From positions 1 through 57,585 of the forward strand of contig CAILCX010000091.1 in the NCBI GenBank assembly GCA_903832775.1: DNA of 57,585 nt. The letters are read 5' to 3'. The translations under genes were made by a program, and so were the position numbers. A model generated the notes under the pieces. That model searched no databases and had not been told where the DNA came from. It worked only from the letters and a program-made list of their open reading frames with translations. Shown here in pieces: positions 47,424-52,773 of the stretch; the first letter of the stretch is position 1; every line of letters begins with the position of its first letter. This stretch comes from an uncultured Methylobacter sp. (GTDB lineage Bacteria > Pseudomonadota > Gammaproteobacteria > Methylococcales > Methylomonadaceae).

Positions 47424-48944
47424 ATGGGGATACTCAGCATACTGCTCTGGACTCCGGCTGTGGGGGCCTTGCTGCTGGCTTCAGTGCCAGGCAAGAACAT
47501 ACGGCTAATCCGTTACATCGCCAATTTGTTTGCTGCTATCGCTTTCCTATTAGTTTGTTGGCTGCTGAGCAACTATAACGCCCACGATGCTGAATTACAG
47601 TTTAATGAATATTTTCCGCTGAATCCACGATTAGGCAGCGCTTATGCGTTGGGCGTAGATGGTTTATCCATGCCGATGCTGGTGCTGGCGACCTTGTTGA
47701 CGGCTATGGCCTTGCTAGCCTCCTTCACCGTGTCCAGCAGCGTCAAGGGTTATCATGTTTGTATATTGTTGCTTGAGTTCGGCATGTTAGGGGTGTTTTT
47801 GGCTCAGGACTGGGCCTTATTTTATATCTTCTGGGAAGTGACATTAATCCCGCTGTTCTTTCTGATTGGTCGTTGGGGCGGTAAAAGACGGCACACGGCC
47901 AGTCTTAATTTCGTGCTGTACACGATGGGCGGCTCGGTATTTATGCTGATTAGTTTATTGGCAATCAGTCAGTATGATCTTGAACACGGTGGTTCCTTAA
48001 TGTCTTCGATGCATCAGGCGGCGCAAGACATGCCCAGATTTGAGCAGGTTTTAGTGCTGTTGGGTTTTGTGATCGGTTTTGGCGTTAAAATGCCGATTTT
48101 TCCGCTGCACGGCTGGTTGCCGCTGGCTCATGTCGAAGCGCCCAGTCCGGTCAGTATTTTACTGTCCGGTATTTTGCTGAAAATGGGCGCTTACGGTTTG
48201 ATCAGGGCGGTGGTGATGCTGCCGGAGGCCGCCAAGTTGTTGCAACCCTACCTGATTTTCCTGGGACTGTTCGGTATGCTTTATGGCGGTTTACTGGCCT
48301 GGCGGCAAAGCGATCTTAAAGCCATGATTGCCTATTCTTCGATCAGCCACATGGGCATAGTCTTGTTGGGTATTGCGACCTTGAATGAGATTGGCATTAC
48401 CGGCGCGGTGTTGCAAATGAGCGCTCACGGCCTGATTGCCGGTGCGCTGTTTCTGCTGGTGGGGTTGTTGTATGAGCGCACGCATACCCGCAACATCCAG
48501 GATTACCGTTCACTGATTCAGGTGATGCCGCGTTTTACATTGTTCATGACCTTAACCTTGCTGGCGGCGATGGGGCTGCCAGGTTCGGTGGGCTTTATTG
48601 CCGAGTTGCATACCTTGATTGGCGGCTTCAGTGCATTTGCCAGTCTTGGCTTAGGCCTAGTCGTGATGGTTTTCTTTAGCGTGAGTATGTTAATCGGCGC
48701 CGCTTACGCGATACGCACGATCAGCCTGCTCTTTACCGGGCCTAAATCCCCCCTCCCCCCCCTTTTTCAAAAGGGGGCGAGGGGGGATTTTCAGCTTGAA
48801 GACTTGAAAACGCCAGAACTATTGGCGGCCGGAATTCTGGTTGCGGGCATTGTGTTATTTGGCCTAGTGCCTGCGCCGCTGTTGGCTTTGTCCTCAGCCA
48901 CCATCAGTCAGATGAACACCGTCATCAGTCAGCGAATTTTATAA
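47424..48944 (+). CDS. NuoM-like proton-translocating subunit of a DAB-type system
   Basis: The protein has 506 residues and about 14 membrane helices. All key ionisable residues of the NuoM/Mrp antiporter family are present: Glu in FYIFWEVTLIPLFFLIG, Lys in FGVKMPIFPLHGWLP, Lys in ILLKMGAYGLIR and Glu in GSVGFIAELHTLIGG. It probably conducts protons to energise the DabA protein encoded next. Oddity: a 47-bp palindromic repeat (48744-48790) is read in frame and adds about 16 residues (441-456) before the last helix. This is not complex I itself, because no other nuo genes are present. Confidence 0.9.
   Translation: MGILSILLWTPAVGALLLASVPGKNIRLIRYIANLFAAIAFLLVCWLLSNYNAHDAELQFNEYFPLNPRLGSAYALGVDGLSMPMLVLATLLTAMALLASFTVSSSVKGYHVCILLLEFGMLGVFLAQDWALFYIFWEVTLIPLFFLIGRWGGKRRHTASLNFVLYTMGGSVFMLISLLAISQYDLEHGGSLMSSMHQAAQDMPRFEQVLVLLGFVIGFGVKMPIFPLHGWLPLAHVEAPSPVSILLSGILLKMGAYGLIRAVVMLPEAAKLLQPYLIFLGLFGMLYGGLLAWRQSDLKAMIAYSSISHMGIVLLGIATLNEIGITGAVLQMSAHGLIAGALFLLVGLLYERTHTRNIQDYRSLIQVMPRFTLFMTLTLLAAMGLPGSVGFIAELHTLIGGFSAFASLGLGLVVMVFFSVSMLIGAAYAIRTISLLFTGPKSPLPPLFQKGARGDFQLEDLKTPELLAAGILVAGIVLFGLVPAPLLALSSATISQMNTVISQRIL
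48744..48790. repeat. Intragenic 47-bp palindromic repeat
   Basis: AAATCCCCCC (48744-48753) is mirrored by GGGGGGATTT (48781-48790). Pairing continues inward through C-runs to a TTTTTCAAAA loop with two mismatches. It encodes KSPLPPLFQKGARGDF in frame. The C-run, TTTTTCAAAA, G-run layout resembles short palindromic repeats dispersed in many bacterial genomes. Confidence 0.75.
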
Positions 48945-48952
48945 TATTGACC

Positions 48953-51900
48953 ATGCAAGACTCTCCTTTAAAATTACGTGAACACATCATCACCGCGCTA
49001 AATCATCTGGATCATGTTCTGCCTGGGCAGGCGCCTATCCTGGATTTCGTTCATCACAACACTTTGCATGGTTTTCAGCAGCTGCCGTTTGACCAGGCGT
49101 TGGCTGAATTCGAAGCCTTAACCGGTATTTGCTGTTATCTTTCTGAACAGAAAAACCGGGATTTTTACCAGCAGGGGCGCATTGACGACAATGATTTGTC
49201 CGCTGCGTTTGCTCAGTGCCGGAACTTGCAGGCTGAGCAAAATGTGTGCGTTTTAAAAGATCGGACAATTACCCGGGAGGCTGTTTATCGCATTGCGCTG
49301 TTGTTTGATTTGCAGGCCGTCAGCGTCAGTCATTTGAACTGGCAGATAGAGGAATTGGCTGTCCTGGAGTCTGTGCAGAGTGATGTGCCAGAGCCGGTAC
49401 GTCTGCAATTGCTTAACGAGGATAGCCAGTTTATCCGTGAGTTATGGGCAGGCATTTTAACCAAGCTTGGCCTGGAGCAGGCGGCTTTACACCCGGAAAC
49501 TATGTTGGATTTGTCGCTGGAACAGGCCGAAGAATGGCTTTCGCCATCCGACTACGCTCAGGATAGGCCTGACGGATCCGCGCATCTGCAAATGCGCGAA
49601 CAGGCAGGTGCAGCACTGGATGAGCTGCTCGGTGAAATAGGTAACATCAGCTTACGCGGAGTCATACTGGCCTTGACCGGTACAGATATTCTCGAGGCTA
49701 TTCGTGCTCAACTGATACGCTATTGCGCCTCAGGACTGGATGAAGGCGTGGCAGCATGGCAGTTGCCTCAGCGCAGTAATTTAGGTCTTTATGCGGCCTG
49801 GCGGGCAACGGCTAGCTATGACGCCAATCCCTTTTTGCATGAGTTGCAAGACTGGCAGCAGATTATCGCCGAATTGCCAGAAGATGCAGTCGATACCATC
49901 ATCCTGCAACTGATACATTTAGACATTCCGCAAACGCGATGGGCCGATTATCTTCGCCGCCTGGCGCTGGAAATACCCGGCTGGTCGGGGCTGATCAACT
50001 GGCGGCAACATCATCCGAACTATCAAACCGATAATGACGCTAAGCCGACGCTGGCCGATTATCTGGCGATACGCCTGACGCTGGACAGGCTGTGGCTGAA
50101 TCAGGTCTGCCGCGACACCTGGAAAATCGAAGCTAAACTCAGTGCCATTCAGGGTTATTTCCGTAAAAATCTTTCGGAATTTATGGTGCGCAGCCGTTTG
50201 TATCAGGGCGATTTGCCGGAATATCTGATCCACAGGGCCGAATCTCTGTCCCTGCATGCCGGTTCAGAGCGCTATGACCGCAGCGATTGGCAACAACTTG
50301 CCGATCTGATCTGGACCTGGCAGTGTAGTCAGAGAACAGAAGACAAAAGACAGAAAACAGAAAACGAACATCGGACAGAGGATAGAAGACAGAATCCGCA
50401 GCTCGACTTCCTTCAGCTGCCGACGCTTACACCTCAGAACAGCGGCTGGCGTTTATTTCGCTTATGCCAGCACCTGGGACTTAAGGCCTCTGAGCTACAA
50501 CTGTTGGACAGCGAAAATCTGCAAGCCCTGTTGCTTGTACTGGATGGGTTCACCCAAAGTGAACGCAGTAAAGTCTGGCTGCTGGCTTACGAGCATCATT
50601 ATCGGAAAGACTTTTTTCAGGCGCTGCACGCCAATCATCAACGCGGTCGATGGGCTAAACGCGGGCAACGTCCCGATGCGCAAATCATTTTCTGTATGGA
50701 TGACAGGGAAGAAGGCTTCCGCCGCCATCTCGAAGAGCTTAATCCCGGCATCGAAACCCTGGGCGCGGCCGGTTTTTTTGGCGTTGCGATGAGCTACCAG
50801 GGCTTGGACGATGTCAAGGTAACGCCGCTGTGTCCTATCGTGGTAACGCCAACGCATGAAGTCAAGGAAAGGGTCAGGCCGGGTAGCGAAACGCAGCTGC
50901 TCAAGCATAACCGGGGGCGTAAGCTGAAGCATTTTCTGGGCAAACAGTTACATCAAGGCTTGCGCCGCAACCTATTGCTGTCGCTGCCGCTTATTAATGC
51001 GCTTGCGCCGCTTAGCCTTGCCGGGTTATTGGCAAAAACCCTGTTCCCCAAAGCCCAGCAAAGCCTGGTTTCCGGTATCTCGCGATGGGCCTCGCCTGAA
51101 GTTACAACGCAATTGCAATTTACGTCTACGGATCAAACAGTGGCAAGCCCGGAGCGCCCCAAGCAGGGTTTTACCGATAGCGAACAGGCAGACCGGGTTG
51201 CTGGTTTTCTACGCAATATTGGCCTGAGCTACGGATTTTCGGAACTGGTCGTGTTAATGGGGCACGGCTCTGGCAGTCAAAATAACCCGCATTTGGCGGC
51301 TTACGATTGCGGCGCCTGTAGCGGGCGACATGGCGGGCCGAATGCACGGGTGTTTGCGGCTATGGTTAATCGCGCTGACATACGCCAACTTTTGGCCGAG
51401 CGAGGCATAACTATCCCGTCCGACACCTGGTTTATCGGTGCGGAACATAACACCTGTAATGAAGCAATCAGCTGGTACGACCTTGATGATCTTCCGCCCG
51501 AGCGACGCTCCGGGCTGGAGACATTACAGCAGGAATTGCGCCATGCCCAGCGTATGTCCGCGCACGAACGCTGCCGACGACTGGCTTCGGCGCCGCGCAA
51601 CCCGTCACCAGAACAGGCCTTAAGCCATATCAAAGAACGCGCGGCCGATTTCTCCCAGGTTAGACCGGAACTGGGGCATGCGACCAATGCTGCGGCGGTA
51701 GTGGGCCGTCGTTCATTAACTCAAGGTGTATTTTTTGACCGGCGGGTATTTCTGATTTCTTATGACCCGACGCAAGATGCTGACGGCAAGGTGCTGGAAG
51801 GGATTTTACTGGCGGTGACTCCGGTGGGCGCAGGCATTAATCTGGAATATTATTTTTCTACGGTTAATAACGAACGCTTTGGTTGCGGCTCTAAAGTGCC

Positions 51901-52312
51901 ACATAACGTCACTGGTTTTTTTGGCGTCATGGAAGGCGCCAGCAGTGATTTACGTACCGGCTTGCCCCAGCAAATGGTTGAGATTCACGAACCGATGCGC
52001 TTGCAGATTCTGGTTGAGGCCAAAACAGCGGTGTTGGAACACATTTATCAGCGTCAGGAAAGCATACGGGAATTGGTGGCGGGCGGTTGGGTGCATTTAA
52101 GCGCTAAAGACCCGGATAGCGGCGATATTTTCATCTTCGAGTGCGGTACCGGCTTTGTGCTGTGGCAAGCCGAGGCTAAAGATCTGCCGATTCGCGATAA
52201 TTCACCGGAATGTTACCAGGGTCAAGTCCTGCCGGTAGCGCCTATCCTAATTAAACAACTTGATCTGAAGATGGGCATGAATAACCCTCTCCAAAGGGAG
52301 AGGGTTGGGTGA
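48953..52312 (+). CDS. dabA: DabA, DUF2309 carbonic-anhydrase-like subunit
   Basis: The protein has 1,119 residues and belongs to the DUF2309 (PF10070) family. DabA proteins use a beta-carbonic-anhydrase-like zinc site to trap CO2 as bicarbonate, energised by a membrane partner. The site is intact: Cys581-x-Asp583 (IIFCMDDREEG), then His771 (LMGHGSGS) and Cys786 (YDCGACSGRHG); the 15-residue His-Cys spacing equals that of the characterised DabA2. The N-terminal part (FVHHNTLHGFQ) is longer than in DabA2. Oddities: a heptanucleotide repeat (50336-50395) adds a polar insert at residues 462-481, and the final nine residues come from the inserted DUF559 cassette. Start ATG 48953 has no clear ribosome-binding site, so coupling to the upstream gene is likely. 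Confidence 0.93.
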   Translation: MQDSPLKLREHIITALNHLDHVLPGQAPILDFVHHNTLHGFQQLPFDQALAEFEALTGICCYLSEQKNRDFYQQGRIDDNDLSAAFAQCRNLQAEQNVCVLKDRTITREAVYRIALLFDLQAVSVSHLNWQIEELAVLESVQSDVPEPVRLQLLNEDSQFIRELWAGILTKLGLEQAALHPETMLDLSLEQAEEWLSPSDYAQDRPDGSAHLQMREQAGAALDELLGEIGNISLRGVILALTGTDILEAIRAQLIRYCASGLDEGVAAWQLPQRSNLGLYAAWRATASYDANPFLHELQDWQQIIAELPEDAVDTIILQLIHLDIPQTRWADYLRRLALEIPGWSGLINWRQHHPNYQTDNDAKPTLADYLAIRLTLDRLWLNQVCRDTWKIEAKLSAIQGYFRKNLSEFMVRSRLYQGDLPEYLIHRAESLSLHAGSERYDRSDWQQLADLIWTWQCSQRTEDKRQKTENEHRTEDRRQNPQLDFLQLPTLTPQNSGWRLFRLCQHLGLKASELQLLDSENLQALLLVLDGFTQSERSKVWLLAYEHHYRKDFFQALHANHQRGRWAKRGQRPDAQIIFCMDDREEGFRRHLEELNPGIETLGAAGFFGVAMSYQGLDDVKVTPLCPIVVTPTHEVKERVRPGSETQLLKHNRGRKLKHFLGKQLHQGLRRNLLLSLPLINALAPLSLAGLLAKTLFPKAQQSLVSGISRWASPEVTTQLQFTSTDQTVASPERPKQGFTDSEQADRVAGFLRNIGLSYGFSELVVLMGHGSGSQNNPHLAAYDCGACSGRHGGPNARVFAAMVNRADIRQLLAERGITIPSDTWFIGAEHNTCNEAISWYDLDDLPPERRSGLETLQQELRHAQRMSAHERCRRLASAPRNPSPEQALSHIKERAADFSQVRPELGHATNAAAVVGRRSLTQGVFFDRRVFLISYDPTQDADGKVLEGILLAVTPVGAGINLEYYFSTVNNERFGCGSKVPHNVTGFFGVMEGASSDLRTGLPQQMVEIHEPMRLQILVEAKTAVLEHIYQRQESIRELVAGGWVHLSAKDPDSGDIFIFECGTGFVLWQAEAKDLPIRDNSPECYQGQVLPVAPILIKQLDLKMGMNNPLQRERVG
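50336..50395 (+). repeat. Heptanucleotide tandem repeat inside dabA
   Basis: Seven imperfect copies of ACAGAAG are present: four in tandem (50336-50363), an 11-base interruption, then three more (50375-50395). They encode a charged Arg/Thr/Glu/Asp/Lys/Gln insert. A unit of seven is not a multiple of three, so loss or gain of one copy would shift the frame. Confidence 0.75.
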
Positions 52313-52319
52313 GGGGAAA
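52284..52319 (+). repeat. Left inverted repeat of the DUF559 cassette
   Basis: The repeat contains CCCTCTCCAAAGGGAGAGGG, itself a perfect hairpin, then TTGGGTGAGGGGAAA. It encodes the last nine codons and the TGA stop of dabA, and its GAGGGG serves as the ribosome-binding site for the DUF559 ATG at 52320. Confidence 0.8.
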
Positions 52320-52670
52320 ATGAAATTAACCATCAAAGCAAGGTCATTAAGACGAAACCAAACCCCTTTTGAGCGTTTATTATGGCAAAAACTAAGAAAT
52401 AAGCAGATATTAAGCTTCAAATTTCGGCGACAGTTTCCTATTGCCCCTTTTATTGTTGATTTTTGTTGTCTTGAATTAAGGTTAATTATTGAACTGGATG
52501 GTTCACAACATTTTGAACAGGCAAGCTATGATGAAGAAAGAAGTTTGTATCTCGCACAACCTGGATTTAAATTGATTCGTTTCTGGAACAATGAAATTAT
52601 TGAAAATACTGAAGCCGTTTTAGAGAAAATTTATTTGGTTATTTTAGCGATTACAGGTAAGGAAATATGA
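52320..52670 (+). CDS. DUF559 (Vsr/PD-(D/E)XK-like) endonuclease-domain protein
   Basis: The 116-residue protein has the family order LRRNQTPFERLLWQKLRN, FKFRRQFPIAPFIVDF, IIELDGSQH (Asp...Glu-x-Asp nuclease core) and GFKLIRFWNNEI. It resembles very-short-patch repair endonucleases and stand-alone DUF559 proteins, whose roles are largely unknown. ATG 52320 follows GAGGGGAAA supplied by the left inverted repeat; an upstream TTG at 52305 overlaps dabA and is rejected. The base composition is more A/T-rich than the neighbouring dab genes, consistent with acquisition. Function in transposition or repair is inference. Confidence 0.9.
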   Translation: MKLTIKARSLRRNQTPFERLLWQKLRNKQILSFKFRRQFPIAPFIVDFCCLELRLIIELDGSQHFEQASYDEERSLYLAQPGFKLIRFWNNEIIENTEAVLEKIYLVILAITGKEI

Positions 52671-52678
52671 TTATATTA

Positions 52679-52714
52679 TTTCCCCTCGCCCAGCCCTCTC
52701 TCTTTGGAGAGGGC
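52679..52714 (+). terminator. Right inverted repeat acting as intrinsic terminator
   Basis: GCCCTCTC and GAGAGGGC pair around TCTTTG and run into TTTTTCTTT, a rho-independent terminator. The same bases are the right end of the DUF559 cassette. It would cut transcription between dabA and the three downstream NuoL/M-like genes unless it is read through. Confidence 0.65.
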
Positions 52715-52773
52715 TTTTTCTTTGTTCTAGATAAATCTGTGCTTAGCCTCATAAATTGCAGGGAGTTTAATAA

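Follow-up and report, generated by a model that had tools for sequence, protein, structure and literature searches.

Among described bacterial repeat systems, REP/RAYT (REPIN) comes closest in organisation to the unit reported here. In the accessible text of its description, a single small nuclease gene stands between two palindromes in inverted orientation, inverted pairs of these repeats without the gene are scattered in genomes, and no target duplication is reported at the palindrome boundaries (Nunvar et al., 2010; PMC2817692). The REP/RAYT enzyme is a Y1 transposase, and a GTAG/GTGG head stands by the palindrome. MITEs and insertion sequences are likewise short units with inverted repeats, some containing a gene and others none.

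A second group, the boxC/PIT/TMECO "intrastrand triplex" repeats, is laid out as a C-rich arm, a loop, a G-rich arm, a short gap and a third G-rich strand, and occurs in more than 260 genomes according to the accessible parts of Holder et al. (2015; PMC4666352). The same parts of that study count 23 copies of the motif in E. coli K-12, with five pairs inverted and some pairs cut down to one hairpin, show in vitro that the E. coli motif adopts a stable triplex, and give no mobility function near the repeats (PMC4666352). DUF559 proteins, which have the family and fold of the protein described below, include YcjD, NGO0050 (3hrl) and Caulobacter VsrA; the accessible text of their sources describes them as uncharacterised or as repair nucleases and leaves flanking repeats unmentioned, VsrA being read there as a mismatch-repair enzyme (PMC12907096). 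Within the literature in reach, which lies mostly outside the subscription journals, no paper was found that joins DUF559 to repeats, the repeat sequence CCCTCTCCC included.

The unit studied here lies in a window of 57,585 nt, the whole stretch of DNA analysed, from an uncultured Methylobacter sp. (GenBank assembly GCA_903832775.1, contig CAILCX010000091.1). As in REP/RAYT, its gene is flanked by two inverted palindromes; the enzyme, however, is of the DUF559 PD-(D/E)XK/EDxHD type, and the ends lack the GTAG/GTGG head and have a mirror-image third strand. With boxC/PIT/TMECO these ends share the stem, the loop, the third strand and the arrangement in inverted pairs, but whereas the accessible text of PMC4666352 associates no mobility gene with the repeats, here a DUF559 gene lies between two copies. 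Unlike MITEs and insertion sequences, the unit is without a transposase, and target duplication was seen only around the outer element of one other genome (G090). The unit is probably, at a likelihood that we put at roughly 55%, a member of a widespread two-part selfish system that resembles REP/RAYT, employs an unrelated nuclease, and whose movement we infer.

The unit at the 3' end of dabA

The two 36-nt inverted arms (Table 1) are identical at 32 of 36 positions, with the mismatches A/G, G/A, T/C and T/C all being transitions, and were returned by an inverted-repeat search of the window as arms of 40 nt with an 88% match. Each folds into a hairpin of 9-10 bp (minimum free energies of -16.5 and -17.7 kcal/mol, z -2.2 and -3.1), followed by a G-rich tail that points to the DUF559 gene; no other open reading frame between the ends reaches 80 aa, and no transposase gene lies inside the unit. 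The layout of the end is CCCTCTCC...GGAGAGGG + GGGTGAGG, and the pattern GGAGAGGG-NN-GGGTGAGG, with up to three mismatches, has two matches in the window, both of them the arms, where 0.09 are expected. The third strand of the left end, GGGTGAGG, is the mirror of GGAGAGGG except for one A to T, and this end shows the purine-rich stem arm and mirror third strand by which boxC/PIT/TMECO repeats are recognised. Judged by sequence, the arms are copies of this known intrastrand triplex repeat, where the initial annotation had taken them to be the unit's own.

Table 1. Positions of the dabA-linked unit and neighbouring features in the window
Feature	Position	Strand	Description
Gene-less copy of second end type (CCCCCCCTTT..AAAGGGGG..GGGGGGATTT)	48744..48790	+	In frame within a NuoM-like gene; translated as KSPLPPLFQKGARGDF
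dabA (PF10070)	48947..52312	+	Pfam E 3.5e-259; last codons and stop come from the element; junction compared with 21 other genus genomes
Left end	52284..52319	+	Predicted triplex-type hairpin ACCCTCTCC-AAAG-GGAGAGGGT plus tail GGGTGAGGGG; dabA stop and ribosome-binding site; like TMECO/boxC sequences in the accessible part of PMC4666352
DUF559 (PF04480) nuclease gene	52320..52670	+	116 aa from ATG; 121 aa from alternative TTG at 52305
Right end	52679..52714	-	Inverted copy of left end; also intrinsic terminator of the nuclease gene
DNA from right hairpin to next gene	52715..52773	+	Mostly missing at empty sites

The dabA stop codon, TGA at 52310-52312, lies within the left arm, a Shine-Dalgarno-like GGTGAGGGG ends 3 nt 5' of the ATG at 52320, and intrinsic-terminator scoring picks out the right arm, with its 10-pair stem followed by TTTTCTTT. 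Arm comparison and folding bear out the initial description of hairpin ends inverted at 32/36 positions by transitions only, and these signals lie where it had placed the dabA stop, the ribosome-binding site of the nuclease and the terminator. The start-signal role of the end is not general across loci, an in-frame start 2-13 nt past the tail being found by a crude regular expression at 30 of 82 comparable loci. Elsewhere in dabA, an in-frame low-complexity stretch at 50330-50401 encodes QRTEDKRQKTENEHRTEDRRQNPQ.

The genome of the window contains one DUF559 gene, and a search of that genome gave no copy of this end type beyond the unit's own two; the unit is resident there once, at dabA, and its own end type is not dispersed. 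Dispersed gene-less copies of the kind known from REP/RAYT are many in relatives, and the window holds one of a second end type (the AAATCCCCCC type), whose hairpin CCCCCCTTT..AAAGGGGGG followed by GGGGGGATTT is found on both sides of DUF559 genes in five relatives (L021, L023, L024, L025 and L034). The window copy aligns with this second type at scores of 21.5-26.5, against shuffle maxima of 8.5-10.5.

The 116-aa protein matches PF04480 with an E-value of 5.9e-41 (139.2 bits against a cut-off of 20.6), its other Pfam match, to MTES_1575, is sub-threshold, and the same scan found no Y1 transposase domain; a PADLOC search returned a weak DpdF match (E 0.016). Its predicted structure (pLDDT 86.5) is closest to 3hrl, another DUF559 protein, and next to the catalytic domain of the homing endonuclease I-Bth0305I (3r3p; E 3e-4, TM 0.60/0.69), which shares its conserved acidic and histidine residues and matches it weakly in sequence (E 0.0096), but at only 15-16% identity. 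To our knowledge, I-Bth0305I has no hairpin ends. Across 48 sequences, E18, D47 and H64 are invariant and D71 is at least 90% conserved, residues that we take to be catalytic. Fold and conserved residues, as judged from the predicted structure and these sequences, are those of an EDxHD, Vsr-like nuclease; the label "Vsr-like" in the initial annotation is right in this broad sense only, since I-Bth0305I is the closer match and Vsr itself follows at E 0.11-0.35, ranked behind some mitoribosomal proteins as well as PvuRts1I and AbaSI. The DUF559 gene is under purifying selection: dN/dS is 0.07 and 0.11 between the window gene and two same-site congeneric copies, and 0.07-0.18 in 13 of 15 pairs where it was computable, with dS near saturation in most.

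Pairing of DUF559 genes with triplex repeats across loci and genomes

The named DUF559 loci, which are the best 80 of at least 578 confirmed relatives, bear titles that include Proteobacteria, Chloroflexi, the Cyanobacteria-related Gastranaerophilales, Nitrospirae and Spirochaetes. When their two 300-nt flanks were compared, inverted arms exceeded shuffled controls at 65 of these best 80, one of them (L088) consisting just of runs of N. With L088 and one locus with a short flank left out, 61 of the remaining 78 were framed by arms that passed a fixed threshold, which was passed by 9 of 1361 mock positions taken from these loci and by 132 of 765 pairings of flanks from different loci. Inverted arms also surround 22 of 29 scored DUF559 loci in relatives (30 less L029, which has a short flank) and 10 of a further 20 that were chosen partly because their genomes lacked the pattern; no arms above the cut were found at 17, 7 and 10 loci of these three sets, respectively. 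The framed loci of the named and relative sets thus dispose of the objection, foreseen in the initial annotation, that the repeats might never be found around other DUF559 copies, and the gene-repeat association is solid. Protein and end distances correlate over 83 loci (Mantel r 0.29, p 0.0005), a co-variation that may be partly due to shared ancestry.

Ends were parsed at 70 loci, 133 in all; their third strands match the mirror image of their own stem more closely than that of stems swapped in from other ends (0.85 vs 0.75, p 1e-14), perfectly so in 83, so that the three-strand design is conserved while the letters change. Matching in the direct sense, without mirroring, reaches 0.80, which leaves a mirror signal that is genuine but of limited size. 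Loci with an inverted-arm score below 18 were left out of this analysis, as well as of the Mantel and target-duplication analyses.

At 60 sampled loci in three genomes, no gene other than DUF559 was found between adjacent inverted hairpins 250-1600 bp apart; for the DUF559-less genomes G006 and G040, viewed over +/-1500 nt, the figure is none in 30 loci. Several individual loci show further arrangements. In L007, L032, L013 and L017, DUF559 units lie in frame within reading frames for a type I specificity subunit or a DNA methyltransferase, with the hairpins translated, and on a Synechocystis plasmid (L268) a pglX reading frame follows immediately after the DUF559 gene, which appears to interrupt a methyltransferase gene. 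The unit of Legionella anisa (L104) has nearly identical inverted ends of ~147 nt, and in L199 and L213 of genome G001 the hairpin is part of a larger palindrome ending AAGTTATTTCATGCGCGTTCC, a composite element. Phages and plasmids were rejected as vectors of DUF559, which is rare in them: tblastn with the window protein had matches in 2 phage records (of 50,697) and 45 plasmid records (of 72,556), several of these records being chromosome-sized. Local comparison gave clean framing arms at none of five inspected phage or plasmid loci, and in viral contigs the single-protein query had no match and an alignment query had 29 loci.

Gene and repeat also co-occur at the level of whole genomes. A strict DUF559 match (E<=1e-15) was present in 60 of 276 genomes of the class, and at least one repeat copy in 48 of these 60 against 36 of the 216 others (p 8e-20). 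Because the counts take in the unit's own ends, a cut of at least five copies is also reported, which was reached by 31 of 60 genomes with DUF559 and 13 of 216 without (odds ratio 17). With one genome per family (140), the corresponding figures are 23/27 vs 19/113 for at least one copy and 14/27 vs 8/113 for at least five. The Y1 transposase (PF01797), used as a control, gave odds ratios of 2.0 and 2.3 for any and at least five copies across all 276 genomes (p 0.02 and 0.05) and of 2.0 and 3.4 with one per family (p 0.11 and 0.08), and had no link to the repeats once DUF559 was held fixed (p 0.5). Within the order (61 genomes, the window's and 60 relatives), the median is 12 copies in the 25 genomes with DUF559 against 0 in the 36 without (p 7e-4), and at least five copies occur in 16/25 and 8/36, respectively. 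The initial annotation had proposed a search for the ends elsewhere in the host and its relatives, and it is in the relatives that they are found, with 132 copies in G001; the window's genome has no further ones.

The correspondence has exceptions on both sides. Thirteen of the 276 genomes have at least five copies and no strict DUF559 match, three of them having weaker matches, and in the order-level set the DUF559-less G006 carries 77 copies. Conversely, type-1/2 repeat copies are absent from 12 of the 60 DUF559 genomes; among DUF559 loci from nine of these 12, those of G090, G178, G239 and G246 are framed by arms that had escaped the pattern, G156 has a weaker arm pair, and G149, G225, G255 and G280 have none. 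A pattern for CCCTCCCC-type ends over the 61 genomes gave no informative signal of end-type specificity: G057 has 18 copies and arms of that type at a DUF559 gene, G049 one copy at the DUF559 locus itself, G023 two near one DUF559 gene with arms below the score cut, G042 four with its DUF559 unframed, and G009 one, while four DUF559-less genomes also carry such copies, G058 having 21.

Occupied, empty and gene-less sites

At the best dabA match in 22 genomes of the genus (the window's included), the gene is present in three (G000, G001 and G012), a single hairpin that looks like a collapse of two arms in one (G010), and neither in 18. The initial annotation had conceded that its view would suffer if the gene lay at this place in all relatives without repeats, which is not the case, and the dab loci lacking the insertion that it had suggested looking for are these 18 of 22. 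In empty genus members, dabA reads almost directly into the next gene, for example through GGAGTTTAATAAATGG; the segment between the right hairpin and the next gene in the window may be an outer part of the insertion or a degraded flank. In two of the 18 (L038 and L040, from G011 and G019), the gap after dabA holds a GTAGGCCGG REP-like repeat, and the locus has no hairpin of the unit's type. G046, which belongs to another family, also has a DUF559 unit immediately downstream of dabA (L009); its tail is of a different variant, and the insertion seems to have been independent.

Gene-less pairs have the same orientation as the gene units. Of the 12 pairs of neighbouring copies no more than 150 bp apart in G057, 11 are inverted, have their tails inward and are separated by 71-74 bp, and in G046 all five neighbouring pairs among the 23 copies listed of 76 are arranged tails-inward. 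In E. coli, three states of the hairpin pair (full, collapsed, absent) occur at hrpB-mrcB and two (full, collapsed) at alx-sstT, with inexact junctions where the pair is missing or reduced. No target duplications were detected at hairpin boundaries, the 57 units scored being equal to the control.

The E. coli K-12 DUF559 gene, ycjD, has its 3' end 168 bp from TMECO copy 9, with a degenerate hairpin directly at that 3' end and an unrelated palindrome upstream of the gene. No boxC arm was seen upstream of ycjD at the K-12 locus, and this best-studied DUF559 gene is therefore not cleanly framed. The E. coli control genome gave no PF04480 match although K-12 has ycjD; since 2,096 of 5,426 E. coli genomes show no stretch that spans 80% of the ycjD region, the control may belong to these.

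In G090, three DUF559 copies that closely resemble one another (L245, L246 and L247) are nested in a larger element, whose outer terminal repeats are long and inverted, with the ends CAAAGGTATC...GATACCTTTG. This outer element is bordered by 9-bp duplications, GTGCAGATT and GTTTGTAAC, with one mismatch at the third copy, and the flanks of two of the three are related repeats. Duplications of 9 bp are made by some DDE transposases. Given these outer ends and duplications, a conventional transposon may carry the DUF559 unit in G090.

A probable two-part element and its alternatives

The initial annotation had likened the unit to REP/RAYT, and the likeness holds for the framing by inverted palindromes and withstood both objections that it had raised against itself, but not for the enzyme or the ends, which differ. 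What favours a two-part element is the ends themselves, their repeated linkage to the gene, the way in which gene and ends co-occur and co-vary, the orientation that gene-less pairs have in common with gene units, the occupied and empty sites and the purifying selection; weighing it down are the lack of target duplications, the repeat-rich genomes without DUF559, the absence of dispersed own-type copies and the lack of clean framing at ycjD. Its autonomous part would be the DUF559 gene between two inverted, predicted triplex-capable hairpins, while boxC/PIT/TMECO pairs that lack the gene, and single hairpins of that kind, would be its non-autonomous parts. The nuclease would recognise the stem and mirror-image third strand of its own ends, single-stranded or extruded, as for instance at a replication fork, and would nick or cut there, after which host repair or replication would copy the hairpin-bounded segment to a new place. 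RAYTs are thought to copy REPs in such a way. DUF559 is a strong candidate for the spreading agent of the repeat family, and a causal direction from nuclease to repeat spread is the best-supported reading, though unproven. More tentatively, and at somewhat less than even odds, DUF559 proteins at large could be mobilisers of boxC/PIT triplex repeats and define a new element class, in which a PD-(D/E)XK/EDxHD nuclease acts alone, with neither transposase nor recombinase, recognising hairpin ends that form a triplex and spreading both these ends and its own gene in chromosomes of many bacterial phyla.

The main rival to this two-part reading derives from Caulobacter VsrA and casts DUF559 as a host or defence-type repair nuclease, Vsr-like in mismatch recognition or structure-specific, that is kept in hairpin-rich genomes to resolve or repair and not to disperse. 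Purifying selection on the gene and the location of some units within restriction-modification genes would agree with it, as would the requirement of VsrA for the SOS response of cells without a cytosine methyltransferase and the detection of Vsr by profile comparison with YcjD, in the accessible texts of PMC12907096 and PMC1189080, respectively. Yet a host gene would not need matched inverted ends, which frame 61 of 78 named loci (from the best 80 of at least 578), and the distribution is patchy, with a strict match in 60 of 276 genomes and sites without the unit, so that we regard a repair role as unlikely. It is decidedly unlikely, too, that the hairpins are a safe landing site and DUF559 a gene captured between existing boxC pairs that were moved otherwise, by slippage during replication, by a transposase acting in trans or by IS-like carriers. 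Genomes with many copies and no DUF559, the G090 unit inside its larger element with outer terminal repeats and 9-bp duplications, and the collapse of E. coli pairs to a single hairpin all speak for such capture; against it, no other gene was found between adjacent inverted hairpins (60 sampled loci, three genomes), and the genome-level link is with DUF559, not with the Y1 transposase.

The fold and weak sequence match to I-Bth0305I, together with in-frame insertions in conserved genes, would suit a homing-endonuclease-like gene whose product cuts empty sites and is copied by recombination, the hairpins being accessory terminators; homing does not predict that gene-less hairpin pairs also multiply, which makes it highly improbable. 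That ordinary terminators flank an ordinary gene by coincidence is scarcely credible: the right arm is a plausible intrinsic terminator, but the left arm lies upstream and is inverted, and chance is refuted by the 61 of 78 named loci (best 80 of at least 578) against 9 of 1361 mock positions together with the class-level co-occurrence.

If the two-part reading is true, the REP/RAYT way of life would have a second, unrelated enzyme, and the DUF559 family would gain a suggested role. With a nuclease gene that lies between triplex repeats and is present where they abound, the origin of these repeats becomes a testable question, for example at ycjD in E. coli K-12.
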